Below, in pieces: positions 22,652-40,348 of a stretch of 64,000 nucleotides of DNA. How positions within the stretch are numbered: the first letter of the stretch is position 1; each line of letters starts with the position of its first letter. Where the stretch lies: positions 94,957-158,956 of the forward strand of contig ONKA01000005.1 in NCBI GenBank assembly GCA_900318265.1, read 5' to 3'. A program made the translations under genes and the position numbers. Below the pieces are notes generated by a model. It was not told the DNA's origin, did no database searches, and saw only the letters and a program-made list of their open reading frames with translations. Origin of the DNA: an uncultured Bacteroidales bacterium (lineage in GTDB: Bacteria > Bacteroidota > Bacteroidia > Bacteroidales > F082).

Positions 22652-23893
22652 ATGTTGGAAAACAAATACAAAGAGTCCGTCCTCCCGAATGGCATTAGGC
22701 TGATACACAAGGAAAAACAAGGCGAAATCGCCCATTTGGTACTGATGGTGGAGACCGGCACGCGCGATGAGGTGGCCCACGAAAACGGCCTCGCCCACTT
22801 TGTGGAACACACCATCTTCAAAGGCACGCAAAACCGCAAGGCATACCATATCCTGAGTTGCCTCGACAACGTAGGCGGCGACCTCAATGCTTTTACCACC
22901 AAGGAGGAGACCTGCCTGCAAGCCACCTTCCTCAAGCAACATTATAAACGCAGCCTCGACCTCTTTGCCGACATCGCCTTCCGTTCCACCTTCCCCGAGA
23001 ACGAGCTGGCCAAGGAAAAGGAAGTCATCTTGGACGAGATCAACTCCTATCTGGATTCTCCCTCCGACGAGATCTATGATTTGTTTGAGGAGATGGTTTT
23101 CAAAGGACATCCTTTGGCACGCAACATATTGGGTACTACAGAGTTGGTAAAAGGATTCCATCGTCAGGACATCCTCGACTTCATGGCGCACAACTACAGC
23201 ACCGACCAGATGATTTTAGCCTCCATCGGCGACATCAGCTTCAAGGAGTTCGAGCGGATGGCCATGACTTATTTTGGAAGCCAACCTGCACACATTATTA
23301 ATAAGAAACGCGAAATCTTCGAAGGCTATAGACCCGAAAGTCGCATCGACAAGCGCAACAACCATCTGAGCCACTGCATTATAGGTAACATCGCCCCCGA
23401 GTTCAGCAGCCCTATGCGCATGCCCATCGTCATGCTCAACAACGTGCTTGGCGGTCCAGCCATGAGTTCGCGTCTCGGCCTGAACATCCGAGAAAAATAC
23501 GGTTTCGCCTACAGCATCGAGTCGCAATACACAGCCTATTCCGACGTCGGTCTCATCAACGTCTATATGGGTGTCGACCCCGACTCGCTTGAACGCGCCA
23601 TCGAGTTGGTCCATAAGGAATTGGACAAGCTCTGTACCCAAAAGTTAGGCACCCTACAGTTGCATCATGCCAAGCAGCAACTCATAGGGCAGGTGGCATT
23701 GAGCTACGAAAGTGGCATGAACGAGTTGCTGAGTGCGACGCGTTCGCTCATCATGGGCGAAGAAATCGAATACATGGATGATATCATACAAAAGGTAGAG
23801 GCCGTCAATGCGGAAGACATCCTGGAAGTGGCCAATCAAGTCTTCGACAAGAAACAGTTGAGTCGGATTGTTTTTGAAGGAGATACCCCGTAG
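22652..23893 (+). CDS. M16 family zinc peptidase (processing-peptidase type)
   Basis: The 413-residue protein carries the inverted zinc motif HFVEH (H49, E52, H53) and the third ligand E129 in the EKEVILDEI helix, 76 residues on as expected. The C-terminal half is the non-catalytic M16 domain (GPAMSSRLGLNIREKYGFAYSIES). No signal peptide is seen, so it is probably cytoplasmic, degrading short peptides. The stop codon TAG lies inside the first CCCCGTAGGGG repeat, so the last residues (GDTP) are repeat-encoded. The natural C-terminus may have been altered by the insertion. Confidence 0.9.
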   Translation: MLENKYKESVLPNGIRLIHKEKQGEIAHLVLMVETGTRDEVAHENGLAHFVEHTIFKGTQNRKAYHILSCLDNVGGDLNAFTTKEETCLQATFLKQHYKRSLDLFADIAFRSTFPENELAKEKEVILDEINSYLDSPSDEIYDLFEEMVFKGHPLARNILGTTELVKGFHRQDILDFMAHNYSTDQMILASIGDISFKEFERMAMTYFGSQPAHIINKKREIFEGYRPESRIDKRNNHLSHCIIGNIAPEFSSPMRMPIVMLNNVLGGPAMSSRLGLNIREKYGFAYSIESQYTAYSDVGLINVYMGVDPDSLERAIELVHKELDKLCTQKLGTLQLHHAKQQLIGQVALSYESGMNELLSATRSLIMGEEIEYMDDIIQKVEAVNAEDILEVANQVFDKKQLSRIVFEGDTP

Positions 23894-24011
23894 GGGTTCC
23901 CTTTTAATAACAAACAAACAACCATCAACACATTATAATTACCCCGTAGGGGTTTTCTATTCATAACCAACAGTACTCACATTACACTAATGACACTACC
24001 CCGTAGGGGTT
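23885..24011. repeat. Three direct copies of palindrome ACCCCGTAGGGGTT upstream of the transposase
   Basis: Copies lie at 23885-23898, 23941-23954 and 23998-24011, with 56-57 base periodicity. Copies 2 and 3 continue identically into TTCTATT. Each is a CCCC-GTA-GGGG mini-hairpin. The third ends 10 bases before the transposase ATG. Confidence 0.9.
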
Positions 24012-24021
24012 TTCTATTAAG

Positions 24022-24483
24022 ATGGCAAACACATACAATCAAATCTACATCCATTTGGTCTTCGCAGTAAAATTCCGCGATGCCGTCATCAACAAATCAT
24101 GGCGACAAGAGCTTTACCAATACATTATCGGCCTAATTGCGAACAGAGGCCACAAAGTTTATGCAATTGGTGGGATGAGCGACCATATCCACATCTTGGT
24201 GAGCCTTTCACCCAAACAAGCCATTTCGGAATTAGTGCTGGAAGTGAAAAGAGCTTCGTCATTGTGGATAAAAGAAAAACAATATGTTAGATGCCAATTC
24301 GCCTGGCAAGAAGGTTTTGGGGCTTTTTCATACAGCAAGTCACAGGTTGATAGCGTGGTGAAATACATTCAAAATCAAGAAGCTCATCATGCAAAACACA
24401 CATTCAAGGATGAATATGTTTCGTTTCTTCAATTGTTTGGAATCGAATTTGATGAGAGATACATTTTTAAGGAAATGGCGTGA
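24022..24483 (+). CDS. IS200/IS605-like Y1 transposase (RAYT-type)
   Basis: This 153-residue HUH single-strand transposase has HUH residues H55-I-H57 in SDHIHILV and the catalytic tyrosine Y115 in VVKYIQNQEAHH. The N-terminal YIHLVFAVKFR strand is typical of the family. It cleaves single-stranded DNA at hairpin-containing ends through a 5'-phosphotyrosine link. No TnpB or orfB neighbour is present. Small palindromes flank it in opposite orientation (three upstream, two downstream), so it resembles the REP-associated tyrosine transposases that mobilise or maintain short palindromes rather than a classical IS. Confidence 0.9.
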   Translation: MANTYNQIYIHLVFAVKFRDAVINKSWRQELYQYIIGLIANRGHKVYAIGGMSDHIHILVSLSPKQAISELVLEVKRASSLWIKEKQYVRCQFAWQEGFGAFSYSKSQVDSVVKYIQNQEAHHAKHTFKDEYVSFLQLFGIEFDERYIFKEMA

Positions 24484-24496
24484 CAATGTAAAAGAA

Positions 24497-24561
24497 AACC
24501 CCTATGGGGTAATACAAACAAAAAATGACACGAATCTATTATAAGAGAACCCCTACGGGGT
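24497..24561. repeat. Two inverted copies of the CCCCTACGGGG palindrome downstream of the transposase
   Basis: Copies at 24497-24510 (AACCCCTATGGGGT, loop base changed but both stems kept) and 24548-24561 (AACCCCTACGGGGT) are in inverse orientation to the upstream trio. Together they bracket the transposase as left and right ends. Confidence 0.88.
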
Positions 24562-27869: not shown

Positions 27870-28439
27870 ATGCTAAACATAGTACTTTTCGGCCCTCCCG
27901 GGGCAGGCAAAGGAACGCAGTCACAGTTCCTGCGCGAGAAATATAACCTGACCTATATCTCCACCGGCGAAATCCTGCGCGAGGAAATCGCCGCCGAAAG
28001 CGAACTTGGCCTTCAAGTCAAGGAAATCATCAGCCAAGGCAACCTCGTCTCCGACGAAATCGTGGCCCAAATCATCGAGAAGAAACTCTCCGAGAACATG
28101 GACTCGGCGGGCTTCCTCTTCGACGGCTATCCGCGCACGGTGCGCCAAGCCGAGATCCTGGACGAGATGATGGAGAAGTTCGAGATGTCGCTGACAGGCG
28201 TGTTGAGCCTTGAAGTGCCCGAAGAACTCCTCATCGAGCGTATGCTTGAACGTGGCAAGACCAGCGGTCGCGCCGACGACAACCTTGACTCCATCAAGCA
28301 CCGCTTTGTGGAATATGAGGCCAAGACGCGCCCCGTGCTCGATTTCTACCAAGGCAAGGACAACCTGCACGCGGTGAACGGCGTGGGCGAGATCCCGCAA
28401 ATCTTCGAGAACCTCTGCTCCGTCATTGACACTTTGTAG
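27870..28439 (+). CDS. adk: Adenylate kinase
   Basis: This 189-residue enzyme interconverts ATP + AMP and 2 ADP. The P-loop GPPGAGKGT spans 8-16 and the AMP-site STGEILREEI follows. FDGYPRTVRQAE and RMLERGKTSGRADD are in place. It is the short form lacking the long zinc-binding LID, normal for Bacteroidetes. A cloverleaf-type repeat element begins 6 bases after the stop. Confidence 0.95.
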   Translation: MLNIVLFGPPGAGKGTQSQFLREKYNLTYISTGEILREEIAAESELGLQVKEIISQGNLVSDEIVAQIIEKKLSENMDSAGFLFDGYPRTVRQAEILDEMMEKFEMSLTGVLSLEVPEELLIERMLERGKTSGRADDNLDSIKHRFVEYEAKTRPVLDFYQGKDNLHAVNGVGEIPQIFENLCSVIDTL

Positions 28440-28444
28440 GATTA

Positions 28445-28588
28445 TCACAAAACCCACAAAACAATCAAAACTTCTTTGTAGTAGAGGGAAAGCGGCCAAC
28501 TGGCCCGCTTTCCGGCGGCGACACAGTTGTGCGCCGCCCTCCTCTTTGACAAAAAAAAACGGTTTTGTGGGTTTTGTATGTTTTGTGA
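28445..28588. repeat. MITE-like element with 3 x 9-bp terminal repeats and two internal hairpins, copy 1
   Basis: The left end is TCACAAAAC-CCACAAAAC-AATCAAAAC (28445-28471). The right end is GTTTTGTGG-GTTTTGTAT-GTTTTGTGA (28562-28588). Inside are two hairpins: GGAAAGCGG / CCGCTTTCC (28487-28495 with 28505-28513) and GGCGGCG / CGCCGCC (28514-28520 with 28532-28538). A short junction stem AGAG / CTCT encloses them. The fold is a cloverleaf. Copy 2 is at 40213-40348. Confidence 0.85.
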
Positions 28589-28597
28589 GAAAAAAAA

Positions 28598-29260
28598 TCA
28601 GTGTTCCCAGCGGATATCGTGCTTGAGGATAGTTGGCGGGTTGCCGCCAATGACTTGATGCTCGCCGCTGAAAGATGAGGTCAGCAGCGTGCCTGCTGCC
28701 ACAACCGTGTTGTCGGGCACCACGGCACCTTTCAGCAACACACACTTGCATCCAATCCAGACATGGTCGCCAACCTGAATGGCCTTGTCGGGATTGATGC
28801 GTTCGTTTTCCATATTATATAGGGGATGCTCGTCGGTGTCCATCACGAGGATGTCCCAACTCAATAGGCAGTCGCGCCCGAAACGGATCTCCTTGGCGCA
28901 TACGATGGTGCTTTCGGCAGTCATGTTGAAGCCATCGCCAAAACACAAATTTCCGCGAACCGAAAGCTTCGAGCCATGCCCAATGCTCGCCTTGCCGCCA
29001 AAGCTGACCGTGCCGCTCACCTGCCAGATGCCACGGGAACGCTTGCGGTCGTAATGGCCCACATCGCCGAAGCCGATTTTTATCATTGCCCTTTCCACCT
29101 TTTCGGGAAGCTCCACCTTACCGTGCAGTTCGCGCAGGTAGGTGCGGTGCGACACCACGACAGGCAGCTTCAAGGCCGTCTTCAGCGGAAAATAATGAAG
29201 ATTAAAGCGCAGCGTCTTCGGAATCGAGCAGAGGATATTGAAGAAATCAAAAGCGGTCAT
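28598..29260 (-). CDS. Left-handed beta-helix (hexapeptide repeat) acyltransferase
   Basis: The 220-residue protein has a C-terminal left-handed beta-helix with hexapeptide-like repeats (IRFGRDCLLSWDILVMDTDEH, IQVGDHVWIGCKCVLLKG, VPDNTVVAAGTLL), as in the CysE/Maa/WbbJ group of O-acetyltransferases. The N-terminal 90 residues are helical and poorly conserved. It is likely cytosolic, acetylating a sugar or polysaccharide precursor; the substrate is unknown. The start at 29260 (MTAFDFFN) is chosen because the -7 box at 29280-29287 excludes the upstream in-frame ATG at 29299. Confidence 0.83.
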   Translation of the reverse strand: MTAFDFFNILCSIPKTLRFNLHYFPLKTALKLPVVVSHRTYLRELHGKVELPEKVERAMIKIGFGDVGHYDRKRSRGIWQVSGTVSFGGKASIGHGSKLSVRGNLCFGDGFNMTAESTIVCAKEIRFGRDCLLSWDILVMDTDEHPLYNMENERINPDKAIQVGDHVWIGCKCVLLKGAVVPDNTVVAAGTLLTSSFSGEHQVIGGNPPTILKHDIRWEH

Positions 29261-29279
29261 AGTGGTCTGATTTATGGCG

Positions 29280-29287
29280 CAAAGATA
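29280..29287 (-). promoter_or_regulatory. -7 promoter element for the acyltransferase
   Basis: TATCTTTG on the minus strand, followed by CGCC, lies 19 bases before the ATG at 29260. Confidence 0.78.
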
Positions 29288-29319
29288 ATCATTTCGCATT
29301 CAACCGACCGAATTTTGAC

Positions 29320-29327
29320 TAATTTTG
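29320..29327 (+). promoter_or_regulatory. -7 promoter element for the TPR lipoprotein (nearly leaderless)
   Basis: TAATTTTG followed by CGGCG ends only 5 bases before the ATG at 29333, so the transcript would have almost no leader. Confidence 0.68.
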
Positions 29328-29332
29328 CGGCG

Positions 29333-31168
29333 ATGAAACTGAACAGGATATTAATAGGATGGTTTGTTTTGTTGGCCTTGGCCTCATGCCATGACCCTGT
29401 AGAGACGCGGCGCGCCACGTCTCTACAACCCGAGGTATCGCCCGAATTGTTGTATATCGACAGCCTAATGTGGTATCATCCAGACAGTGCCTTGATGCAC
29501 CTGATTTATTATTTCAAACCCGATAGCGCGACCATCACCCTCTCCACAAGAACGGAATGCAACCAACGATATGCACACTTGCTACTGTCGGAATTGCTGT
29601 TTAAAAATGGTTATCCACAAACCAACCGAGAAAATCTATTGTGGTCAGTAGATTATTTTGATTCGTTAACAATGGTGAAAATACACGGGACGGACACACG
29701 CGGTGTGTCCCTACAGACCGCATCGGATTGTAGGAACGCATCAAATGCGTCCGCCCAAAACATGTCCCCAAATAATGTATTTTTGTCCGCCCGCGCCCAT
29801 TATATGAATGGCGTTGGCTATCTGGAACACGACAGCATCATCGAGGCCTACAACGAATACATCCGCGCCTTGGAAATCATGGAAACGCATTTCCCAATTG
29901 TAGAGACGTTGCGTGCAACGTCTCAAAACACGACATCAAAAAAGACGTTGCACGCAACGTCTCTACACATCATACCCCACCTTCCTCGTTTCATGATGCT
30001 GATCCATTGCCGTCTCGGCGGCCTGTTTTCCGACCAATACATGCAGGAACCTGCCCTCTATTGTTTCAAAAAAGCACTCGTTTTCAACAGATTGGAACCT
30101 ATTTTCCTAGACGATTATCCCAAATCGTTGTATTACATTGGGTTGCAATACGACAAACTACAGCAATGGGACAGTGCGCAAAACTATTACGATGAAGCAC
30201 TTCGCCTGCTACCCGACACAAGCAACTGGCTTTTCAAATGTCTGATGGCAAACAAGGCCAACCTCAATTATGCTTCAAGTGAGGACGTTGAACCCGCCGT
30301 GAGCAACTTGAAACGCATTGCGGCGAAAGCCGATTCCTACGAAAAGCCATGGCATTTCTTCCTCATTGGGCAGATTTATTACAACGAAAAACAATATGAC
30401 TCAGCCTTGGTTTATCTGGAACCAACCTTTGAACAAAGCAAGAACATTGAAACCAAAGCCCTGGTAGCCAAGTTCTTGCACGACATTTACCAAAGTCGAG
30501 GCGACACATTGGAGGCCTCGCAATATGCGGTCTATCATGCGGAACACACGGAACAAGAAAGGGTGAAAATGGCGCGGGTTTCATACCTCAACGAACTGTT
30601 TCAGAAACATTTGCAAAAAGAACAAGAAGCCAAATTGCTCATTGAGAAGAAAAAGAAAATCAGAACATGGCTCATTGTGGGATTGCCTTTGGCTGTGATA
30701 GTATCGGTTTCTGTGGTGGTCGTAGTTCGGCGAAGAAACCGAAAACGTTTGGCAGCGCAAGAAGCCTACGCCAAACGCCAGTTGAATGAAGTCCAACAAC
30801 GCCACGACGAGGCAGAACGTGAGTTGCAAGCCAAGATGGAACAAGCCGCACAACACACGCGGGAAGTACTGCAACAGCGCGCCATGACGATTTACCAATC
30901 GGGCAGCGAGAACCGCTTGAAACAGATTTTGGCGGAATTTGAGGCCGTCTATCCGAAAGCCATGCCCGAATTGATCTCCACACATCCCGAATTGAGCGAA
31001 ACAGAATGTCATATCGCCATACTCAATTTCCTTCGTTTCCGAGCAAAGGAAGAGGCCGAACTGATGGGCTTCACCGAATACACGGCCCTGAAATACCGCT
31101 CCAACCTGAAAAAAAAGGCTGGTTCCGACCCGATTTCAACCTTGTTTAAGCTGGAAAAATCTGAATAG
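29333..31168 (+). CDS. TPR lipoprotein with transmembrane helix, coiled coil and C-terminal HTH-like domain
   Basis: The 611-residue protein has a lipoprotein signal ending LALASC (Cys19) and TPR-like helices over about 35-430 (ALYCFKKAL, AQNYYDEAL, ALVYLEP). A transmembrane helix follows at about 443-465 (WLIVGLPLAVIVSVSVVVVV, then RRRNRKR), then a coiled coil (470-530). The end is a LuxR/GerE-like helical domain (about 555-600; LSETECHIAILNFLRF, then AELMGFTEYTALKYRSNLKKK). The order suggests an extracytoplasmic sensor with a cytosolic DNA- or protein-binding tail, which is inference. Five palindromic repeats are embedded in frame (residues about 22-32, 119-128, 134-140 and 190-212). An in-frame ATG much further upstream is excluded by the promoter. 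Confidence 0.78.
   Translation: MKLNRILIGWFVLLALASCHDPVETRRATSLQPEVSPELLYIDSLMWYHPDSALMHLIYYFKPDSATITLSTRTECNQRYAHLLLSELLFKNGYPQTNRENLLWSVDYFDSLTMVKIHGTDTRGVSLQTASDCRNASNASAQNMSPNNVFLSARAHYMNGVGYLEHDSIIEAYNEYIRALEIMETHFPIVETLRATSQNTTSKKTLHATSLHIIPHLPRFMMLIHCRLGGLFSDQYMQEPALYCFKKALVFNRLEPIFLDDYPKSLYYIGLQYDKLQQWDSAQNYYDEALRLLPDTSNWLFKCLMANKANLNYASSEDVEPAVSNLKRIAAKADSYEKPWHFFLIGQIYYNEKQYDSALVYLEPTFEQSKNIETKALVAKFLHDIYQSRGDTLEASQYAVYHAEHTEQERVKMARVSYLNELFQKHLQKEQEAKLLIEKKKKIRTWLIVGLPLAVIVSVSVVVVVRRRNRKRLAAQEAYAKRQLNEVQQRHDEAERELQAKMEQAAQHTREVLQQRAMTIYQSGSENRLKQILAEFEAVYPKAMPELISTHPELSETECHIAILNFLRFRAKEEAELMGFTEYTALKYRSNLKKKAGSDPISTLFKLEKSE
29398..29427. repeat. In-frame GTAGAGACG palindrome in the TPR lipoprotein
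   Basis: TGTAGAGACG ... CGTCTCTACA with centre GGCGCGCC and one mismatched pair. It is translated as V-E-T-R-R-A-T-S-L-Q just after the lipidated cysteine. Confidence 0.88.
29687..29752. repeat. Two further in-frame palindromes in the TPR lipoprotein
   Basis: GGACACAC-GCG-GTGTGTCC (29692-29710) and GGAACGCAT-CA-AATGCGTCC (29733-29752, one G-T-type mismatch) lie 22 bases apart. Both continue the open frame (DTRGVSLQ and RNASNAS). Confidence 0.78.
29900..29966. repeat. Head-to-head pair of GTAGAGACGTTGC palindromes in the TPR lipoprotein
   Basis: GTAGAGACGTTGC-GTGCAACGTCTC (29900-29924) and AGACGTTGC-ACGCAACGTCTCTAC (29943-29966) are each palindromic and also mutually inverted. They are translated as VETLRATSQ and KTLHATSLH. 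Confidence 0.9.
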
Positions 31169-31259
31169 ATTTTTCATTAAACACCTGATAATCAACATTA
31201 CTGTATTAGAAAAATCTGAATTGGGCTTTGAAATTTGGGTATTTGATGGTTTTTGGCTA

Positions 31260-31267
31260 TAATTTTG
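31260..31267 (+). promoter_or_regulatory. -7 promoter element TAATTTTG
   Basis: TAATTTTG followed by CAAAA lies 23 bases before the ATG at 31291 and rules out the in-frame ATG at 31228. Confidence 0.75.
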
Positions 31268-31290
31268 CAAAAACATCAAATCATAGCATC

Positions 31291-32550
31291 ATGAAAATGA
31301 ATAACGCCTTTACCTTGTTTGCGTTCCTACTGTTGGCAGCCAACATTTACGCCCAAGAGCGCCAAATTATCCAAGGTTACTGCAAGGACGAGAACGGCAA
31401 AGCCATTGAGAACGTGAGCGTGTATGTGCATGACTCGCTGCTTGTTTCAGTCACCGACGAGCAGGGGCGCTTCACTTACGGCTATGCCCAAACAGGCTTG
31501 AAACTCCGTTTTGCCCACATGGTCTTTGAGCCGACCTATTACACCATCAAAGACAAAGACATCAACGGCAAAAATTTGACGGTCAAGATGAAAACCAAAA
31601 GTCATGAGTTGCTTGAAGTGGAAGTGACAGCAAATGCTCCTCATATCGTTTTCGACAATCCCGTGATGACCGTCATTGACTACACGCTCCGAGAGGACGG
31701 CATTTATATGATTGTGTATCGGCGCAGACACTGCTCTTTGCTCCACCTCTCCTTTGACATGGACACACTGCATGAGATGCCGATTCCATCGCGATACAAG
31801 TATCTTACAAAAGATGCTTTCGGCGACATCTATGCCATCAACGACTACCAAGCCAGTCAAGTCGGATTCATTGAGTACGGAAACGGAAAGAAAGGTCAGA
31901 TGAATTTCTATCATTCCATGCCGCGGAAGACCTTCTACGACAAGTTCTCCACCATCGTGGCGGCATCCGACAGTGTTTTCATCACGGGACGTTACTTCTA
32001 TTACAACAAGGAAATGGGTTACTATAGAAACTGGTTGGGCAGCGATAAGGAGCAGGAATTACTCCATTACATCGTGGATGAGGAAGGCCGTGACGACATA
32101 TCGCTGATGATACGAACAAAAAGAGGCATTGATTACTGGGCCACAGGCCGCATCTACAATCCGATTTACGCCATCGACAACAAGTTCTATCTCTTTGCCT
32201 ACACTGACCATGAGACGATCGTCTTCGATGCCATGGGCAACGAACTGGAGCGCTACCCCCTGACCTTCCACGAATATCGTAAATGGAACGGCAAAATGGA
32301 ACCCGACCGACGCTGGAAACAAAAAATGATGTACGACATGGCGCGAAAGGAGTTTTACACTTTTTTCGTAAATGACGGCATCTACACTTTGAAGCGCATT
32401 GACCTGAAGACAGGCACTGCCACTGCCGTAATGGATCTCAGCGGCTATCCCTTTGCACAAAACATGAGAATTCATGACGGCGTGCTGTATTTCATTTATC
32501 CGACGGGGTTTAACAAGCGGAAGGCGTTGTATCAAGTGAGGATTGAATAA
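31291..32550 (+). CDS. Secreted protein with carboxypeptidase-regulatory-like domain and propeller-like body
   Basis: The 419-residue protein begins with a signal peptide (MKMNNAFTLFAFLLLAANIYAQ). A CarboxypepD_reg-like beta-sandwich follows (residues about 25-110; GYCKDENGKAIENVSVYVHD ... SVTDEQGRFTY). The remaining 300 residues consist of repeated beta segments (FGDIYAINDYQASQVGFIEYGNG, NKFYLFAYTDHETIVFDAMGNELERYP), probably a beta-propeller. It ends FNKRKALYQVRIE. A protein of the same layout is encoded at 35367. A second copy of its last 12 codons plus stop lies 1.5 kb downstream. No enzyme function is recognised. Confidence 0.77.
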   Translation: MKMNNAFTLFAFLLLAANIYAQERQIIQGYCKDENGKAIENVSVYVHDSLLVSVTDEQGRFTYGYAQTGLKLRFAHMVFEPTYYTIKDKDINGKNLTVKMKTKSHELLEVEVTANAPHIVFDNPVMTVIDYTLREDGIYMIVYRRRHCSLLHLSFDMDTLHEMPIPSRYKYLTKDAFGDIYAINDYQASQVGFIEYGNGKKGQMNFYHSMPRKTFYDKFSTIVAASDSVFITGRYFYYNKEMGYYRNWLGSDKEQELLHYIVDEEGRDDISLMIRTKRGIDYWATGRIYNPIYAIDNKFYLFAYTDHETIVFDAMGNELERYPLTFHEYRKWNGKMEPDRRWKQKMMYDMARKEFYTFFVNDGIYTLKRIDLKTGTATAVMDLSGYPFAQNMRIHDGVLYFIYPTGFNKRKALYQVRIE

Positions 32551-32557
32551 GAAGAAG

Positions 32558-33877
32558 CTATTCGTGAAGAAACCTCTCCAACCAGCAGGCCATCGGTGAC
32601 GGTATGCTGAGCATATTCCCGTTTCTTTGAAGATTGTTTGAGGAAAAGCGGACTCGGAATTTCGGATGGTATTTTTCGTTGTAAACAGTCAGGCTCTTGC
32701 CGCTCACATTTTCATCCGCCTTGACCTCAATCGGAACGATTTCCGCCCCATGTTGAATGACAAACTCAACCTCAGCCGTGTTGCCTGATGTCCAGTAATA
32801 AGGCACATCGGCATCGGGCTGCGCTATCAACGACTGAAGCACCACATTCTCGGCCAAGGCTCCTTTAAACTCTGTAAAGCCCGCATTGCCGTTCGTGATG
32901 ACCTCGGGAGCCACACGCGCCAACCGACGCAGCAAACCACAGTCGCAGGCATACACTTTGAAAGCATCGCGCTCCGCATAGCCGCTCAACGGGATGCCTG
33001 GTTTGGAAATGTTGAAAACCTGATGAATCATGCCTGCATCATTCAGCCATAGCAAAGCGTCCTCATAATCTTTTGAACGTGCACCTGTGCGTATTACCTT
33101 GTAGATGAATTTGCGGTTTTCCTTCGACAATTGTGCTGGCAATGAATGCCATACGGAGCGGATTCTCGGTATCTCCATCGGCTCGGCATATTTGGCGAAA
33201 TCCAGCTCGTACAGGTCCAAAATGCCTTGCAAAACTTCATCAACGGCGGCCATTCCCTTGTTTTCAAGCATAGCCACCACCGCCTCGGGCATACCACCAC
33301 AAACCTGATACCGCTTGTATTCAAGGAGCAGTTTATTCAACACTATGGTTGGGATATGTTCCGCTTTTTGGATGCCGTCGATGTATTCAAATGTCTTTGG
33401 GTCAGAGACTTGCAAAAACTCACGGAATGAAACAGGATACATCTTCACCATCTTAACCTTCCCCACAGGCACCGACATTCTCCGTTTTTTGACGGCCACG
33501 CCAAGCAGCGAACCGGCAGCCACGATATGATACTGCGGCGCGTCTTCATAGAAATATTTCAGGCTGTTCAGCGCCTCCTCACATTCCTGAATCTCATCAA
33601 AGATGATCAAAGTCTTTTCAGGAAGCAAAGGCACGTTGCTGTAGATGGACAGTTCCTTCAAAACCCTTTCAGGTTCTTTGCTGTTGGTGAAAGCGTCCTT
33701 GTATTCAGGATGCCTGTCGAAATCGAAAGTGACGCAATAATCGTAATGGTCCTTTCCGAACTGCTCCATAATCCATGTTTTTCCGATTTGCCTCGCTCCT
33801 TGCAGCAAAATCGGCTTCCTGTTTTCCGACCGTTTCCAGGTCGCAAAAATGGCTTCTATGTCTCTTCTTATCTGCAT
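32558..33877 (-). CDS. AAA ATPase with DUF4143 domain
   Basis: The 439-residue protein has an N-terminal AAA_14 domain with Walker A GARQIGKT (27-34) and Walker B LIIFDEIQE (D94, E95), then a winged-helix/DUF4143 C-terminal region (FTEFKGALAENVVLQSL, then EVEFVIQHGAEIVPIEVKA, which resembles the core of a restriction-endonuclease-like fold). Such ATPases are abundant and mobile in Bacteroidetes; their role is unsettled. It is antisense to its neighbours, starting 8 bases from the stop of the upstream gene, and lies between a gene end and a duplicate of that end (34001-34039). Confidence 0.88.
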   Translation of the reverse strand: MQIRRDIEAIFATWKRSENRKPILLQGARQIGKTWIMEQFGKDHYDYCVTFDFDRHPEYKDAFTNSKEPERVLKELSIYSNVPLLPEKTLIIFDEIQECEEALNSLKYFYEDAPQYHIVAAGSLLGVAVKKRRMSVPVGKVKMVKMYPVSFREFLQVSDPKTFEYIDGIQKAEHIPTIVLNKLLLEYKRYQVCGGMPEAVVAMLENKGMAAVDEVLQGILDLYELDFAKYAEPMEIPRIRSVWHSLPAQLSKENRKFIYKVIRTGARSKDYEDALLWLNDAGMIHQVFNISKPGIPLSGYAERDAFKVYACDCGLLRRLARVAPEVITNGNAGFTEFKGALAENVVLQSLIAQPDADVPYYWTSGNTAEVEFVIQHGAEIVPIEVKADENVSGKSLTVYNEKYHPKFRVRFSSNNLQRNGNMLSIPSPMACWLERFLHE

Positions 33878-33944
33878 AAATTACACTTTTTCGTATTGAT
33901 TTGTGTTATATGACTACACTTTTCCATAGGAAATAATGATTTTG

Positions 33945-33952
33945 CAAAAATA
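33945..33952 (-). promoter_or_regulatory. -7 promoter element for the AAA-DUF4143 gene
   Basis: TATTTTTG on the minus strand followed by CAAAA lies 67 bases before the ATG at 33877. Confidence 0.65.
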
Positions 33953-34000
33953 GGAAGATTTTCTTTTTCGGAGCATCTTCCCATGAAAATTTTCCAAAAC

Positions 34001-34039
34001 AACAAACGAAAGGCTTTATATCAAGTGAGGATTGAATAA
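34001..34039 (+). pseudogene. C-terminal remnant of a paralogue of the 31291 gene
   Basis: These 39 bases encode NKRKALYQVRIE plus TAA, identical in protein to the end of the gene at 31291-32550 (32512-32550). The DNA differs at five sites, all synonymous. The DNA further upstream is unrelated. It is best explained as the surviving 3' end of a tandem paralogue whose body was deleted or replaced. Confidence 0.75.
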
Positions 34040-34129
34040 AATTTTGATTGATATTATATCAAAATCGGTATGATTTTTGTAGTATTTAACTTATATTTTT
34101 CCTAGTTAAATCCTTAAAAATCATATTCT

Positions 34130-35359
34130 ATGAAGAAAATCTACTTTCTCTTGCTTTTTGCAACATTTGCTTTCCAAAGCGCAGTGGCGCAAAACGAACT
34201 CCAAAATCCATATGTAGTAGCCAAGGAAGATGGATTCAGCTATCGTTCGTTGAAGAAACTCATCAATATGGACAGCCTTTATGTCGGGTCACAATTTGAG
34301 CGCCCCTATCATGACCTGTTGAGTATTCTGTATTCACGGGTAGGGCATTACAAGGATGCCATGCGTATGGCCGAAAAAGGCAACTTGTTTTCAGACAAGA
34401 CGCGTTTGGCTAGGACCTACGAAAATGTGATAACAATACCTTTGTCGGAAGTGATGGACAGCATCATCGAAAACAATCGAGTCATCATGCTTAACGAGAT
34501 GCATTTTAATCCCCATAGCAGGGCTTTTGTCATCAGTTGGTTGGAAAATTGTTACCAAAACGGATACCGTTACTTTGCCGCTGAAACCTTATTTGCGAAG
34601 GACTCCTTGGTGAACGAGCGGCGCACCGTGCTACTTGGCGAGACGGGATTCTATAGCGATGAACCTGTTTTCGGTGACCTATTAAGGACGGCGCTCAACA
34701 TAGGCTATACGCTGGTGCCCTACGAGGCCGATGGTTGGGGCGTTGACCGCGAGAGGAATGAAGCAGATAACCTAATCAAGAACATTCTTGACAAAGATCC
34801 CGAAGCAAAGTTTTTGCTTTTAGGAGGCATGGGGCATATCACCGACCGCAAAGGGTGGTCGATGATGGGTGGGTTTTTCAAGGAAAAGACAGACATCGAC
34901 CCGTTTACGATGGATTGCAGCGTCATGACTTTCTCTGAACAATACGATAGTATGGACTCGCTACGTACCGCATTTTTTGACCGCATTGATGCCATGCCCG
35001 TCCGAGAGCCGATTATCTGTTATGATACTGCGAAACGCATTTATCCAAACAACTCAGGCATGGATGCCACCTGTTGTCTTCCGCGCACACGCTTCATCGA
35101 AGACAACGTCCCCGACTGGAAACTTTACAACGGCAAGGTGCTTTACACCATCGACCGCCGATTTATCAAAAAGAACGGCTTCCCCGAAGGATGCGTGAGC
35201 GCGTTCCTGAAATCGGAAGGAGAGCAATGCGTCCCCATCGACCAATATATGTACGGCAAGGACGAGAGTGAGTTTAAGTTGACGCTTTACAAGGGCGAGT
35301 ATTTGCTGCGGTTTGACGACGGAAAGGAGTATAAATATGCTACAATCACCGTAAAATGA
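34130..35359 (+). CDS. Secreted EreA/ChaN-like superfamily protein
   Basis: The 409-residue protein has a signal peptide (MKKIYFLLLFATFAFQSAVAQ). The core resembles the erythromycin-esterase/ChaN/TIKI fold: a strand ending LNEMHFNPHSRAF (E123, H125), a second strand FAAETLF (E152) and YTLVPYEAD, then LLLGGMGHIT. These acidic and histidine residues are in the positions expected of that superfamily's active site, but the match is by pattern only. A short N-terminal TPR-like helix pair (about 35-85) precedes it. The gene at 35367 starts 7 bases after the stop, so they are co-transcribed. Confidence 0.62.
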   Translation: MKKIYFLLLFATFAFQSAVAQNELQNPYVVAKEDGFSYRSLKKLINMDSLYVGSQFERPYHDLLSILYSRVGHYKDAMRMAEKGNLFSDKTRLARTYENVITIPLSEVMDSIIENNRVIMLNEMHFNPHSRAFVISWLENCYQNGYRYFAAETLFAKDSLVNERRTVLLGETGFYSDEPVFGDLLRTALNIGYTLVPYEADGWGVDRERNEADNLIKNILDKDPEAKFLLLGGMGHITDRKGWSMMGGFFKEKTDIDPFTMDCSVMTFSEQYDSMDSLRTAFFDRIDAMPVREPIICYDTAKRIYPNNSGMDATCCLPRTRFIEDNVPDWKLYNGKVLYTIDRRFIKKNGFPEGCVSAFLKSEGEQCVPIDQYMYGKDESEFKLTLYKGEYLLRFDDGKEYKYATITVK

Positions 35360-35366
35360 GTGCGTT

Positions 35367-36827
35367 ATGAAACAGAACTCTGTTCTTGTTTTGCTATTGC
35401 TATTCTTTGCTTCTTCGCTTTTCGCCCAAACCCAAACCACCGTTTACGGCAACCTCGGTGTGGAGAACGTGAACATCAGCATCGTGAACACGCCTTACGG
35501 CACCAGCACCGATGCCAAAGGGCATTATGAATTGCCGCTTTTCGACCGCTCGGAGACCGTCAACCTGTATTATTCGTGCATCGGCTATCAGGATACGGTG
35601 GTGAGCCTCACGCCAAGACAGTTGCAGCGCGATTCCATCAACGTCAGTTTCCGTATGCGCAAGATGAGTTACGACATTCAAGAAGTTGGCGTCTCGGCAA
35701 GCAAAGACTTTTACCGCTCTGGTTCCAACCGCAACATCGCCGACATCGCGTTTTTGGATGGGAAAATCTACCTTTTGGAAAACAAACCCAAGACTTCATC
35801 GATGGTCGTCCTCGACACAGAAGGCATTGAACAAGCCAACAAGGACTTCGACCAACTCTTTGAAAAACTCTACATTGACGCTTTCGACGACCTCATTCTT
35901 GTTGGGCAAGACAGTTGTCTGCAAGTGTATCTGGATGAAAAACAGGGCATTTTGCCCGTTTCCACCTTCTCTCGGGATGACTACCGCAACAAACTGCTCA
36001 AAATCGTTTGCGAGTACAACGGAGCTTACATCGTAAGGACCATCGTTCACGACCGAGGACTTTACTGGCTCAAATTCAACCACGGCAAAAGCCAAGATTT
36101 CCTTTACATGAAAAAAGACGGCTCTATGGAGAAGCCCCAATATTTATGCAGTTTCATCGACACCCTCGGCTACCGTGCCTGCCAGTCGCAATGGATGAAG
36201 ATACAAAACGAATACCATCAGGCGATGGCGGAAAACTTCACCCTCGAGTCCATCTACGATGAGAACGGGGACGGGCATCCGGTGCGCGAAGGAGAAAGCA
36301 TAACCTCCATTCGCATCAAAAAAGCGGAACGAGGAAGCCCAGGCATCGACCTCATCAACGAAGGAACTTGGGACGGGAATTTGGTACGCTTGGCAGAAAC
36401 CCCTACCTTGCTTGGAATGATACAATGGTATTGCTCCATGATGGCAAAAAAGGAACTCCAGATTGTCCCCTTGAAAGTCAACGGCATGCTTCAATTCGTT
36501 GGTCTTGACAACCGCGAAATCGTGGAAATCGGCCCCGACTTCAAAGTGGCGAAAAGACAGCAACTGAAAATCACTTCGGGAGAGCAATACTTCAAAAACG
36601 AGTTCCACACCGACAAAGCCACGGGCAAAACTTACGGTCTTTTTGTGGAAAACGGGATGAACCACATCGGCCTCTACGACCCCGAAGCGGGCACAGTCGG
36701 CATGGGACAAAAAGCCAGCAAGAAGATTTATCCAAGGGTATTCAAGGTGCATGGCGGCTATACCTACAGCGTGTTTTTCGATTCGGGTAGCAACCGCGGG
36801 GTGATTAACCGGGTGAAGATAGAATAG
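35367..36827 (+). CDS. Secreted protein with carboxypeptidase-regulatory-like domain and propeller-like body
   Basis: The 486-residue protein starts with a signal peptide (MKQNSVLVLLLLFFASSLFAQ), then a short regulatory-like sandwich (YGNLGVENVNISIVNTPYGTSTDAKGHYELPL, about 24-100) and SVRMR-type closing strand, then propeller-like repeats (IADIAFLDGKIYLLENKP; LILVGQDSCLQVYLDEKQ). It ends SNRGVINRVKIE, similar in kind to the YQVRIE end of the protein at 31291. Both seem to belong to one secreted family of unknown role. It lies 7 bases after the EreA-like gene. Confidence 0.75.
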   Translation: MKQNSVLVLLLLFFASSLFAQTQTTVYGNLGVENVNISIVNTPYGTSTDAKGHYELPLFDRSETVNLYYSCIGYQDTVVSLTPRQLQRDSINVSFRMRKMSYDIQEVGVSASKDFYRSGSNRNIADIAFLDGKIYLLENKPKTSSMVVLDTEGIEQANKDFDQLFEKLYIDAFDDLILVGQDSCLQVYLDEKQGILPVSTFSRDDYRNKLLKIVCEYNGAYIVRTIVHDRGLYWLKFNHGKSQDFLYMKKDGSMEKPQYLCSFIDTLGYRACQSQWMKIQNEYHQAMAENFTLESIYDENGDGHPVREGESITSIRIKKAERGSPGIDLINEGTWDGNLVRLAETPTLLGMIQWYCSMMAKKELQIVPLKVNGMLQFVGLDNREIVEIGPDFKVAKRQQLKITSGEQYFKNEFHTDKATGKTYGLFVENGMNHIGLYDPEAGTVGMGQKASKKIYPRVFKVHGGYTYSVFFDSGSNRGVINRVKIE

Positions 36828-36857
36828 GTTTTCAGGAACAACAATAAGGTTTTTATC

Positions 36858-36865
36858 TATATTTG
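36858..36865 (+). promoter_or_regulatory. -7 promoter element TATATTTG
   Basis: TATATTTG followed by CCCCG lies 30 bases before the lipoprotein ATG at 36896. It overlaps an in-frame codon at 36863 and so excludes that start. Confidence 0.75.
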
Positions 36866-36895
36866 CCCCGTCAAACCAATCAAATCCATTTCATC

Positions 36896-37417
36896 ATGAA
36901 AAAACTATTCATCTGTATCACCATGGCAACCTTCGCATTCGCCATGATGGCGTGCAACAACAACGGAAACAACAAACAAAACACTGACAACAAAGCAAAC
37001 ACAGAGAACACCGTCAGCACACCAGATGCCTCGGTGGAGCTGGGCAAAGCGTTTTTGGAGAACTTCTACCAAGGGTTGGAGGAAGTGTTTGACCAAGAGC
37101 AAGAGGAAGCCTATCAGTATGTATATAAACATGTTACCCCAAAAGCCAAGCAGTTTCTGATAGACCAATACGATTACGACTGTGATGGCGAATGCATGGC
37201 GATATGGCTCTTCCTTTATCAGGGAGGCGGTGATGTAATCGGCAACTGCCAGCGCACTATTGAACCGGTTGACGGGCTTTCGTACAGGGTTACCAATACC
37301 TATTATTATGAAGGCAAAAAAAGCTACGAATATCACGTGAAGCTTGGCCTTGTCAAAGACGCGGACACTTTCAAGATCGATTCCATTACCCCGGAAGACG
37401 AAGCATATTACGATTAA
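36896..37417 (+). CDS. Small lipoprotein of unknown function
   Basis: The 173-residue protein has a lipoprotein signal ending FAMMAC (Cys20) and an Asn/Lys-rich linker. A compact alpha+beta domain follows (AYQYVYKHVTPKAKQFLIDQ, then YRVTNTYYYEGKKSYEYHVKLGLVKDADTFKIDSI). The shape, helices followed by a curved sheet of three or four strands, recalls NTF2-like or DUF4878-type lipoproteins, but I cannot assign it. malQ begins 6 bases after the stop, so they share a transcript. Confidence 0.68.
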   Translation: MKKLFICITMATFAFAMMACNNNGNNKQNTDNKANTENTVSTPDASVELGKAFLENFYQGLEEVFDQEQEEAYQYVYKHVTPKAKQFLIDQYDYDCDGECMAIWLFLYQGGGDVIGNCQRTIEPVDGLSYRVTNTYYYEGKKSYEYHVKLGLVKDADTFKIDSITPEDEAYYD

Positions 37418-37423
37418 CGAATC

Positions 37424-39337
37424 ATGGACTCCTTGTTCCGATTAAGATACAACAGCCGTTGGGGCGAGGAATTGTTCCTCACGGGGAACAGCGATGAATT
37501 AGGCAATTGGAATCCCAATAAGGCAGTTCCGATGGAATATGTGGGGCCTGGGATTTGGTCTGCAACGGTAGAGACGGTGTGCACACCGTCTCTACATACC
37601 ACGGAATACAAATATTTCATCCGCGAAAACGGCCAAATCCGTTGGGAAGAAGGCCCCAACCGCATTTTGCCTGAAGGCAAAGACCGCACATGGGACTGGT
37701 TCGGCCTCACCGAAAGGCAGACGATGAAAGGCGTGGCTGTGCCGCTGTTCAGTCTGCGCACGGAGAACGATTTCGGCATCGGCGAATATGCCGACCTGCC
37801 CAAATTAGGTGATTGGTGCGTGGCCAACGGCATGAACATCATTCAAATCCTGCCCATCAACGACACGACGGCGCATTATGACTGGGGCGATTCTTATCCT
37901 TATAATGCCATTTCTGCTTTTGCGTTGAATCCGATTTACCTCAATATCAAGCAATTGGGCATCAAGGAAGATGCGGCTTTCAAGCGGATGCGGACCATGC
38001 TCAACAAGGAGGAATCTGTCAATTATCCCAAGGTACTGAAAACCAAATGGAAACATTTCCAAACCGCTTTCGAGCAACAATGGGAATCGCTGAAAGACAC
38101 TGCTGAATTCCAGCAGTTCGTCAAGGAAAACGAAGACTGGCTCCTTGACTATGCCCAGTTTTGTGCCGAGCGCGACGGCAACGGCACGGAGATCCACCTC
38201 TTCCTGCAATACCACTGCGACAAGCAACTTCGCAAGGCGGTCAAGGCATTGCATGACAAAGGCCTGCTGTTGAAGGGCGACATCCCTATCGGCGTGAATC
38301 CCTCTGGAGTAGATGTAAAATCGCATCCCGAATTGTTCAACCTTGATGTGCAAGTCGGCGCCCCACCTGACGACTTCGCCGACGAAGGACAAAACTGGGG
38401 CTTCCCGTCCTACAACTGGGAGGCGATGGCCAAGGACGGCTACGCCTGGTGGCAACGCCGCCTGCAGGTGATGGCCCGCTATTTCGATGCATACAGAATT
38501 GACCACATTTTGGGCTTTTTCCGCATCTGGGAGATCCCGAAGACCGCCAAATCGGGACTACTGGGACATTTCAACCCTGCCCTACCCTTAAGCGTGGAAG
38601 AGATCGAAGACCAAGGCTTCCATTTCGTGAAAAGCAAGCATGTGAAGAAAGGTGTCGACACCCTTTTCATCCTTGCACCGAACGAGAAAGACAAATACAT
38701 CCCTCGCATCGAACTGCACAAGACCAAAGCCTATCAAGCCCTCAGCGAGGAACAGAAACACGCCATCGACAACATTTATGAGGACTTCTATTTCCACCGT
38801 CACAACGATTTCTGGAAGCAGAAAGCTTTGGAGAAATTGCCAGCTCTAATCAATGCAACACCAATGATTGCCTGTGGCGAAGATCTTGGCATGATTCCCG
38901 CCTGTGTGCCTGAAGTGATGCAAGAATTGGGCATCATGAGCCTTGAGGTGCAACGCATGCCCAAAGTGTTTGGCCATCCATTCGTGCAGACCGAAGACCT
39001 GCCCGAAAACTGCGTCTATACCACCGGTACCCATGACATGCCCACCTTGCGTGGCTGGTTGGCCGAAGACCGAGTGCGCACCCGCAAGTTCCTCGACAGT
39101 CTCGACCTCGACGACCGCAAAGTCACAGCAAAAACCCTTAAAAAGGTGATGGACAAGCATTTGGACAGCCCTTCAAAATGGAACATCTACCCCCTGCAAG
39201 ACCTTTTGGACTTGGACGAAAAGAACTGGTCGCCCAACCCCGCGGAGGACCAAATCAACGTCCCCGCCAATGCCAAAAACCAGTGGAAATGGAGGATGCG
39301 GATGAATTTGGAAGCTTTATTGCCGCCAATCCGATAA
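37424..39337 (+). CDS. malQ: 4-alpha-glucanotransferase with one N-terminal CBM20
   Basis: This 637-residue GH77 enzyme transfers alpha-1,4-glucan segments during maltodextrin use. Residues 1-95 form one CBM20-like starch-binding domain (LTGNSDELGNWNPNKAVPM); as I recall, Bacteroidetes MalQ usually has two. Catalytic residues are the nucleophile Asp in YRIDHILGFFRIWE (about 360), the acid Glu in CGEDLGMIP (about 486) and the Asp in TGTHDMPTLRGW (about 538). Codons 49-58 (V-E-T-V-C-T-P-S-L-H) lie in a perfect 28-bp palindrome of the GTAGAGACG family, inserted in a CBM20 loop. deoC follows after 35 bases. Confidence 0.92.
   Translation: MDSLFRLRYNSRWGEELFLTGNSDELGNWNPNKAVPMEYVGPGIWSATVETVCTPSLHTTEYKYFIRENGQIRWEEGPNRILPEGKDRTWDWFGLTERQTMKGVAVPLFSLRTENDFGIGEYADLPKLGDWCVANGMNIIQILPINDTTAHYDWGDSYPYNAISAFALNPIYLNIKQLGIKEDAAFKRMRTMLNKEESVNYPKVLKTKWKHFQTAFEQQWESLKDTAEFQQFVKENEDWLLDYAQFCAERDGNGTEIHLFLQYHCDKQLRKAVKALHDKGLLLKGDIPIGVNPSGVDVKSHPELFNLDVQVGAPPDDFADEGQNWGFPSYNWEAMAKDGYAWWQRRLQVMARYFDAYRIDHILGFFRIWEIPKTAKSGLLGHFNPALPLSVEEIEDQGFHFVKSKHVKKGVDTLFILAPNEKDKYIPRIELHKTKAYQALSEEQKHAIDNIYEDFYFHRHNDFWKQKALEKLPALINATPMIACGEDLGMIPACVPEVMQELGIMSLEVQRMPKVFGHPFVQTEDLPENCVYTTGTHDMPTLRGWLAEDRVRTRKFLDSLDLDDRKVTAKTLKKVMDKHLDSPSKWNIYPLQDLLDLDEKNWSPNPAEDQINVPANAKNQWKWRMRMNLEALLPPIR
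37568..37595. repeat. In-frame GTAGAGACG palindrome inside malQ
   Basis: GTAGAGACG ... CGTCTCTAC with centre GTGTGCACAC is a perfect 28-bp palindrome read in the same frame (V-E-T-x-x-x-x-S-L) as the copies in the TPR lipoprotein. Confidence 0.93.
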
Positions 39338-39372
39338 AAAACCTTACCTTTGAAGCCTAAATTCAAACCACC

Positions 39373-40212
39373 ATGAAATTCAAACCCTACAACCATAGCG
39401 AAGCCGCGCTCAACGAGCGCATCGCATTGATTCTCAACGAAGAGAAGAGAAAAGGCCACGAAAAGGAGGCCCTGCGCACCATCTTCCAAAGCATCGACTT
39501 CACTACCTTGGAAGCCTTCGACAACGAAGCCAAGATCAAGGACTTTTGCGAGAAAGCCTTGGCCTTCCCGAAACAGAAACCACACCTCTCTGTGCCCGCC
39601 ATCTGCATCTACAGTCCCTTCATCCGTCAGGCCAAGAAACAGCTTGAAGGTAGTGGCATCCGTGTGGCTACGGTGGCCTGCGCCTTCCCTTCGGGCATGA
39701 TGCCCTTCGACTTAAAGGTTAAAGAGGTGGAATACTGCGTCAACGAAGGCGCCGATGAGGTGGACATGGTCATCTCGCGTGGCACATTCCTCGCGGGTCG
39801 TTACGACGAGGTCTTCAACGAGATCAAGACCATCAAGGAAACCTGCGGCAACAAGGCCAGACTGAAAGTCATCCTTGAAACGGGCGAGCTGAAGACCGTG
39901 GAAAACATCCGCAAGGCCAGCGAATTGGCCATCCTCGCCGGTGCCGACTTCATCAAGACCTCGACTGGCAAGGTGCCGGTGGCCGCTACACCACTCGCCG
40001 CCATCGTCATGATCGACACCATCAAGGAATACTATGAGGCCACAGGCAAGAAGGTCGGCTTCAAGCCCGCTGGCGGCATGAAGGTGCCGGACGATGCCCT
40101 CACCTACTATTATCTTGTGAAAAACATCCTCGGCAAACAGTGGCTCAACCCGAACCTCTTCCGCGTAGGTACAAGCCGCCTCGCCAGTTTAATTTTGGAA
40201 CAAATTCAATAA
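39373..40212 (+). CDS. deoC: Deoxyribose-phosphate aldolase
   Basis: This 279-residue class I aldolase cleaves 2-deoxyribose 5-phosphate to acetaldehyde and glyceraldehyde 3-phosphate. The Schiff-base lysine is in GADFIKTSTGK (about residue 195). EVDMVISRG, KVILETGEL and the second lysine motif FKPAGGM are present. The N-terminal 40 residues are longer than in the short E. coli-like form. The stop codon abuts the second MITE-like element directly. Confidence 0.94.
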   Translation: MKFKPYNHSEAALNERIALILNEEKRKGHEKEALRTIFQSIDFTTLEAFDNEAKIKDFCEKALAFPKQKPHLSVPAICIYSPFIRQAKKQLEGSGIRVATVACAFPSGMMPFDLKVKEVEYCVNEGADEVDMVISRGTFLAGRYDEVFNEIKTIKETCGNKARLKVILETGELKTVENIRKASELAILAGADFIKTSTGKVPVAATPLAAIVMIDTIKEYYEATGKKVGFKPAGGMKVPDDALTYYYLVKNILGKQWLNPNLFRVGTSRLASLILEQIQ

Positions 40213-40348
40213 TCACAAAACCCACAAAACTTACAAAACTATTGTCTTGTTTGAGCGGCACGGCAACCGCCTTGCCGCTGGGAAGCAGCCGGTTGGCGTG
40301 CTTCCCCAACTCAATAAAAAGGTTTTGAGGGTTTTGTAAGTTTTGTGA
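40213..40348. repeat. MITE-like element with 3 x 9-bp terminal repeats and two internal hairpins, copy 2
   Basis: The left end is TCACAAAAC-CCACAAAAC-TTACAAAAC (40213-40239). The right end is GTTTTGAGG-GTTTTGTAA-GTTTTGTGA (40322-40348). The junction stem TTGAG / CTCAA (40251-40255 with 40310-40314) encloses hairpins GCGGCA / TGCCGC (40255-40278) and GGGAAGCA / TGCTTCCC (40280-40306). The internal sequence differs from copy 1 but the fold is the same. Confidence 0.85.

Follow-up and report, generated by a model that had tools for sequence, protein, structure and literature searches.

Two short gene-less repeats on contig ONKA01000005.1 of an uncultured Bacteroidales bacterium (GTDB lineage F082; assembly GCA_900318265.1) were found to belong to a dispersed family, here the CAAAAC family, which has its ends in common with a longer form carrying a single gene, GxxExxY. 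Both repeats lie in the window, that is, the whole 64-kb stretch of DNA analysed (64,000 nucleotides, positions 94,957 to 158,956 of the contig). Within the family the hairpins beside the ends covary and copies are found preferentially just behind stop codons, and around other GxxExxY genes the type of terminal unit follows the protein clade. We consider it somewhat probable that the window copies are gene-less members of a mobile family with the GxxExxY element as parent, in which the GxxExxY protein, a predicted nuclease that would recognise the ends, is the likeliest mobiliser; its action as mobilising enzyme would probably involve a DNA-hairpin intermediate and may in general proceed without target duplication.

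Two window copies of one dispersed element

The two copies and the open reading frames (ORFs) ending next to them are:

28445..28588, + strand: copy 1, a gene-less CAAAAC-family element with the GGAAAGC hairpin first (sequence, alignment)
28445..28471, + strand: left terminal repeat of copy 1, three 9-bp units TCACAAAAC CCACAAAAC AATCAAAAC (pattern search)
28487..28513, + strand: hairpin HA of copy 1, a bulged stem with loop AACT (fold)
28514..28538, + strand: hairpin HB of copy 1, loop AGTT on the + strand, AACT on the - strand (fold)
28562..28588, - strand: right terminal repeat of copy 1, three inverted 9-bp units (pattern search)
40213..40348, - strand: copy 2, the element of copy 1 in reverse orientation (alignment)
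40213..40239, + strand: terminal repeat of copy 2 on the left in the window, three 9-bp units (pattern search)
40254..40279, - strand: hairpin HB of copy 2 (fold)
40280..40306, - strand: hairpin HA of copy 2, loop AACC on the - strand (fold)
40322..40348, - strand: terminal repeat of copy 2 on the right in the window, three inverted 9-bp units (pattern search)
27870..28439, + strand: ORF ending with a TAG stop 5 bp upstream of copy 1, presumably adenylate kinase-like by motif
39373..40212, + strand: ORF whose TAA stop directly adjoins copy 2, presumably deoxyribose-phosphate aldolase-like

A search of the window with the three-unit end pattern, allowing up to three mismatches, gave four matches against 0.06 expected from shuffles; all four were exact and corresponded to the four ends of copies 1 and 2. 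This bears out the coordinates and the three exact 9-base units at each end given in the initial annotation, and folding confirmed the two adjacent hairpins it had described in each copy. When flipped, copy 2 aligned over the full length, through both hairpins, with 26 copies, copy 1 among them; in the pairwise comparison of the two window copies the orientations scored 137 and 143, nearly the same because the ends are symmetric. The two copies had been thought to combine one fold with different interiors. The interiors are not unrelated, copy 2 being copy 1 reversed, and the apparent retention of structure despite changed sequence is mostly an orientation effect between these two copies, but real stem changes do occur in the wider family, where 8 of 12 stem pairs show two-sided changes across 27 copies.

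The order inward from either terminus is identical, with three 9-bp units followed by a spacer and a bulged hairpin with an AACY loop. In the 27 aligned copies, a stem of at least 8 bp was found for HA in 27/27 and for HB in 26/27, and the loops were AACC or AACT in HA and GGTT or AGTT in HB, each in 26/27. Apart from the eight stem pairs with two-sided changes (which include four U-G cells at one pair, counted as two-sided), three pairs were invariant and one deviated only by an unpaired cell, and a one-sided change was seen in none of the 12 pairs counted. Paired cells made up 99.1% of the stems, compared with 31.9–49.1% in slid controls, and the covariation score was matched by 0/500 shuffles; the number of further pair types in the stems was unexceptional (140/500 shuffles). 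The structure counted is the RNAalifold consensus from the same alignment, which favours the fold, and includes only three HB pairs. The compensatory changes that the initial annotation had proposed to look for are present in both hairpins, around the fixed AACY loop.

The pattern of stem changes is no less compatible with pairing in DNA than in RNA, and template-switch correction of palindromes could be an alternative source of the two-sided changes. The hairpins had been suggested to act either as a hairpin end or as an RNA; a DNA end is favoured, although not proven, because no one-sided stem change was seen, none of the 4227 Rfam families attained its gathering score here, and the hairpins occupy corresponding places at both ends. 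Directly after either hairpin, no T run was seen by eye in the copy alignment. A short junction stem closing the two hairpins, also part of the initial description, found no support as a fold: between the two ends, the variable bases in the terminal units showed a complementarity of 0.46, against 0.57 when shuffled, and were identical in 1/21 copies. On this ground a cloverleaf with the terminal repeats as its closing stem was rejected, and since these variable bases do not pair, the outer units are putative protein-binding units rather than a stem.

In its own genome the family gave 35 matches in a DNA search and 47 with the end pattern (up to three mismatches), which combined into 25 places, 24 of them with both ends, with differing flanks and in both orientations. 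The elements are mostly about 130–150 bp long, with some of 170–280 bp and one of 1.7 kb. Of 99 genomes of the genus, one for each species and the window's own among them, 39 had strict ends, and there complete end pairs, judged by eye among the matches listed, mostly span about 90–280 bp. Further copies are therefore plentiful, and the general features of a miniature inverted-repeat transposable element (MITE) are supported: the copies are short, gene-less and dispersed, with terminal inverted repeats in common with a longer form. The earlier label of MITE-like stands, an internal-deletion derivative (described below) and relatives lacking the insert having also been found. In one copy (L056, 3482-3610) the HA hairpin is inverted, so that both loops face the same way.

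Joining the flanks of the copies located uninterrupted sites in relatives, as the initial annotation had proposed, and the copies are absent there; alignments covered 20 loci at 7 sites and, in a second set, 15 loci at 4 sites. At the site of copy 2, no duplicated bases were seen by eye at the junction in 6/7 loci, a provisional result, and the seventh locus (L258) retains an end fragment. At L258, L265, L266, L270 and L252-L255, single ends or fragments stand where genome G000 has the full element, as if by decay through deletion. At a site before a presumably menA-like gene, overlapping stop and start codons (TAATG) occur in three of six empty forms, and at one locus of this site (L097) a gap of 8 bp separates the stop from the insert behind it. 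The two window copies do start within 6 bases of a stop codon, as had been noted, copy 1 lying 5 bp after TAG and copy 2 directly after TAA. More generally, a facing stop codon was found within 11 bp on one side of 19/23 own-genome copies, a count without a control, and copies outside called genes had a facing stop within 12 bp in 14/16 cases compared with 631/3600 (18%) random intergenic positions. These counts cover 23 of the 25 copies (L046 and L053 omitted), and the controlled test used crude gene calls that place 7/23 copies, copy 1 included, inside a called ORF. Selection against gene disruption could contribute to the bias.

The long form and its GxxExxY gene

The full form is 617–664 bp long and has the same CAAAAC ends as the short copies together with one gene, GxxExxY (TIGR04256), in the layout of three 9-bp units, a subterminal hairpin, the gene, a hairpin and three inverted 9-bp units. 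Specifically, seven end pairs about 640 bp apart in genomes of the genus each contained one ORF of about 144 amino acids, and the protein of this cognate clade scored 130.8 bits against the GxxExxY model (cut-off 35). A protein search gave 20 loci of the cognate clade in 19/99 genus genomes, with both CAAAAC ends, at no more than one mismatch each, at 19/20; the 20th (L340) lies at a different site and has degenerate ends, and three others (L337-L339) lie together, judging from their flanks, at a second site. By eye, among the matches listed, complete end pairs with a single element between them and a separation of 300 bp to 5 kb held GxxExxY in eight cases and an ATPase in one, and no DDE gene was seen inside CAAAAC ends; one pair 4.4 kb apart in genome G007 represents two separate short copies. 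A 223-bp derivative at L101 retains the first codons of the GxxExxY ORF, and the gene-less copies most likely derive by internal deletion.

No cognate-clade GxxExxY gene was found in the window's own genome at the threshold used. The 1.7-kb element of that genome (L043, 3296-4997) carries an ATPase_2 gene inside CAAAAC ends, which is read as a captured gene because it is the only one of 24 ATPase_2 loci tested with such ends. An ATPase as the cognate gene was rejected, the one positive locus being the captured copy itself. Relatives of this ATPase_2, with up to 15 scored matches in several genus genomes, lack such ends at 23/24 tested loci. In L272 (G000:C3:5200-5750, about 211-333) and L273 (G070), the menA-like stop/start junction that holds GxxExxY elements in other genomes is occupied by another repeat, which has the look of a relative. 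Its AAAATC / GATTTT units form inverted sets, with copies spaced 23 bp from each other and hairpins on the outer side.

GxxExxY is predicted from sequence and a structural model to be a small Cas4/RecB-like PD-(D/E)XK nuclease. D71, E81, K83, Q95 and Y99 are invariant in 12 GxxExxY sequences from the genus, and in 43 sequences from a set of named genomes D, E, K and Y are invariant with Q in at least 90%. The AlphaFold2 model of the cognate protein (predicted local distance difference test score 96.9) matched best, among PDB entries, SSO0001 (E 1e-4), the Cas4 Pcal_0546 (5e-3) and alkaline/RecE-type exonucleases, with modest scores and a large root-mean-square deviation (12–13 Å) in the top alignments. 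SSO0001 (4ic1) is itself a Cas4.

Triple 9-bp flanks around other GxxExxY genes

GxxExxY/PDDEXK_3 genes occur in 74/99 genus genomes, and clades other than the cognate one are flanked by inverted triple 9-bp repeats with other units (CACAGATT, CACAGAAA, CGCAGAA, CGCAAAG and CACGAAT). In the genus a flank score of at least 600 was reached at 20/30 GxxExxY loci compared with 2/150 random places, the truncated loci L113, L120, L131, L132 and L136 being scored at nominal gene positions; the tests of 8–10 bp spacing and of period used true ORF positions. The named-genome set consists of the best 80 of at least 563 confirmed loci, for which 72 ORFs were read and 79, 71 or 70 loci were usable depending on the test, and each gene family, controls included, is represented by its best-scoring loci. 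In this set, with 8–10 bp spacing, scores of at least 600 were found at 52/71 loci vs 42/213 mispaired flanks and scores of at least 700 at 24/71 vs 5/213; with exact 9-bp spacing the corresponding values were 23/79 vs 3/79 and 14/79 vs 0/79. A period of 9 with all six columns kept was found at 12/29 genus and 11/70 named loci, and at periods 6–8 and 10–14 only 0–1/29 and 0–2/70, respectively, kept all six. Triple-9 ends scoring at least 600 were seen at 1/24 ATPase_2 genes and 1/26 four-helix-bundle genes used as controls (best 30 loci each, with 6 and 4 truncated loci skipped), and the four-helix-bundle genes were rejected as further cargo.

The type of unit follows the GxxExxY protein clade. 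At less than 75% protein identity, unit similarity correlated with protein identity (r=0.19, n=52, 0/2000 permutations), as it did within the genus only (r=0.43, n=10, 10/2000). Judging by record titles, the high-scoring loci come from Bacteroidota, Planctomycetota, Chloroflexota-type Anaerolineaceae, Ignavibacteriaceae and Proteobacteria, many being metagenome-assembled genomes.

Two further observations concern the surroundings of individual genes. GxxExxY elements of the CACAGAT/CACAGAAA types at L112, L119, L126, L133 and L134 adjoin genes that, judged by eye, presumably act in nucleotide-sugar synthesis. In the window, an AAA_14/DUF4143 ATPase gene at 32558-33877 has flanks without triple-9 ends by eye.

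Alternative explanations and related systems

In the mechanism that we propose, the GxxExxY nuclease would recognise its own cognate triple-9 ends, the hairpin beside them probably being extruded as single-strand DNA, and would cut there, and the element would then be copied or pasted into short gaps right behind stop codons without duplicating target bases. We extend this tentatively, with chances a little short of even, to GxxExxY proteins of several phyla, which may mobilise an unnamed class of elements by recognising units and hairpin, may insert them behind stops without duplication and may support gene-less swarms.

A number of observations weigh against these proposals. By flanks judged by eye, 16/20 cognate loci lie at the one orthologous site before the menA-like gene, including the eight long GxxExxY elements enclosed by listed end pairs, which are thus not independent, so that the evidence for the full form having moved is weak. 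In 21 of the 39 genomes with ends, the window's included, there is no cognate-clade gene (six of the 21 are rated at least 95% complete); copies persist in these genomes, and the gene is therefore not required for persistence. Empty and filled sites share 72–93% identity, which makes the absence of duplication provisional, and a whole or partial end is still present at 8/20 aligned empty-site loci. Mispaired flanks scored high as well in the genus set, with at least 600 at 25/87 vs 20/29 for true pairs, and in the period-9 test they reached 7/29 vs 12/29; the high mispaired scores arise because clade members share units, and the named set is the cleaner control. The correlation of units with protein was weaker in the strictest set (score of at least 700; n=27, r=0.15, 42/2000), and such co-divergence is expected of a passenger gene too. 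In other GxxExxY families subterminal hairpins are only partly evident (z<-2 at 8/38 ends, controls 0/38, in the 19/30 genus loci scoring at least 640), and the units of a second family gave 2–21 matches per genome in ten genomes, with no clear gene-less swarm by eye.

The main rival to the nuclease as mobiliser, serious although we hold it to be unlikely, makes GxxExxY a passenger nuclease, serving for instance in defence or stabilisation, and assigns the movement of its cassettes to a trans-acting enzyme that reads the triple-9 ends. Such a role would suit the genomes that retain copies in the absence of the cognate gene, the own-genome element holding an ATPase_2 gene instead and the concentration of full forms at one site, and co-divergence cannot separate driver from passenger. 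Against it, 8/9 long CAAAAC elements listed hold GxxExxY with no other enzyme gene recurring, even if the eight share one site; the ends differ by nuclease clade, which one shared trans-acting enzyme leaves unexplained; and such ends are all but absent from two other gene families. That the element is an ordinary MITE, left by a DDE insertion sequence now lost or unsampled, is improbable: the general MITE pattern does include gene-less copies with inverted ends as well as forms with internal deletions, but no target duplication was seen at the compared (divergent) sites, no DDE gene was seen by eye within CAAAAC ends among the pairs listed, and ends made of triple 9-bp direct units next to covarying hairpins are an unusual layout.

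Movement by a single-strand (HUH) transposase, which the initial annotation had raised, would make the copies REPIN-type elements moved by a RAYT/Y1 enzyme. They are small and intergenic with two inverted hairpins, inverted REP doublets with a 'clover' fold are described in the part of the REPIN paper available (PMC3116915), and the genome has four Y1_Tnp genes, one of them in the window; we nevertheless regard this explanation as very improbable, as the gene of the full form encodes a PD-(D/E)XK nuclease and the window Y1 gene, the one of the four whose surroundings the analysis covered, has CCCCGTAGGGG repeats of its own around it and not CAAAAC ends. This IS200-like gene (24022-24483) has five CCCCGTAGGGG palindromes within 23886-24560, one with 1 mismatch, three standing before the gene and two inverted after it, and thus resembles a RAYT-like gene with GTAG-type REPs. 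A reading of the copies as terminators or conserved RNA elements that spread only secondarily is scarcely credible: stable covarying hairpins close behind stops would be expected of such elements, but copies stand in both orientations, Rfam matches at gathering score and T runs (by eye) are lacking, and none of the 12 stem pairs shows a one-sided change, albeit with the four U-G cells at one pair.

With the nuclease as the preferred mobiliser, the elements may be compared with known systems. REPINs and BIMEs with RAYT, as far as described in the part available of PMC3116915, are likewise short, intergenic and non-autonomous, with two inverted hairpins, an association with an enzyme gene and sequence groups matching enzyme groups. 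Their enzyme is an HUH tyrosine transposase whereas that of CAAAAC elements would be a Cas4-like PD-(D/E)XK nuclease, and CAAAAC elements, unlike REPINs, have outer ends of three inverted 9-bp units and, in the full form, a gene between the ends. The GTAG tag at the hairpin foot, a REPIN trait, formed no conserved column in the copy alignment by eye; in copy 1 a GTAG does occur close by. MITEs derived from insertion sequences, such as the IS982-derived MITE of Cardinium (PMC9769881, in the part available), also have gene-less copies with inverted ends common to a longer form; in CAAAAC elements, however, the long-form gene is not a known transposase and no target duplication was seen. The BrickBuilt MITE of Porphyromonas gingivalis is similar in being an intergenic Bacteroidales element with repeated units and small inverted ends, but has a 23-nucleotide tandem minisatellite core, and the available part of its description (PMC4596501) mentions neither three 9-bp ends nor a nuclease parent. 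GxxExxY (TIGR04256/PF13366) has the fold, the catalytic D...ExK and the QxxxY in common with Cas4, RecB and lambda-exonuclease-like nucleases, and differs from these relatives as a minimal protein (124–144 amino acids in the cases modelled or aligned) that is the sole gene inside terminal repeats. PD-(D/E)XK homing endonucleases are a case of a mobile element with a nuclease as its only gene; homing genes are not known to have triple-repeat inverted ends or a gene-less MITE swarm.

No work treating GxxExxY as mobile was found in the literature covered, with subscription journals and preprints outside this coverage; the available passages naming GxxExxY assign it no specific role and do not treat mobility. 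The end motif strings were unmatched, and broader searches gave no matching system among the titles and abstracts listed. We rate the combination of element architecture and enzyme as a new kind, with the driver role unproven, set apart from the nearest systems by the available parts of their descriptions. If the nuclease is indeed the mobiliser, a common 'hypothetical' family would acquire a function, and a Cas4-like nuclease would carry out transposition with no recombinase of the DDE, tyrosine or serine type. This would also explain the triple 9-base repeats beside GxxExxY genes in several phyla, with a target-choice rule of insertion just behind stop codons.

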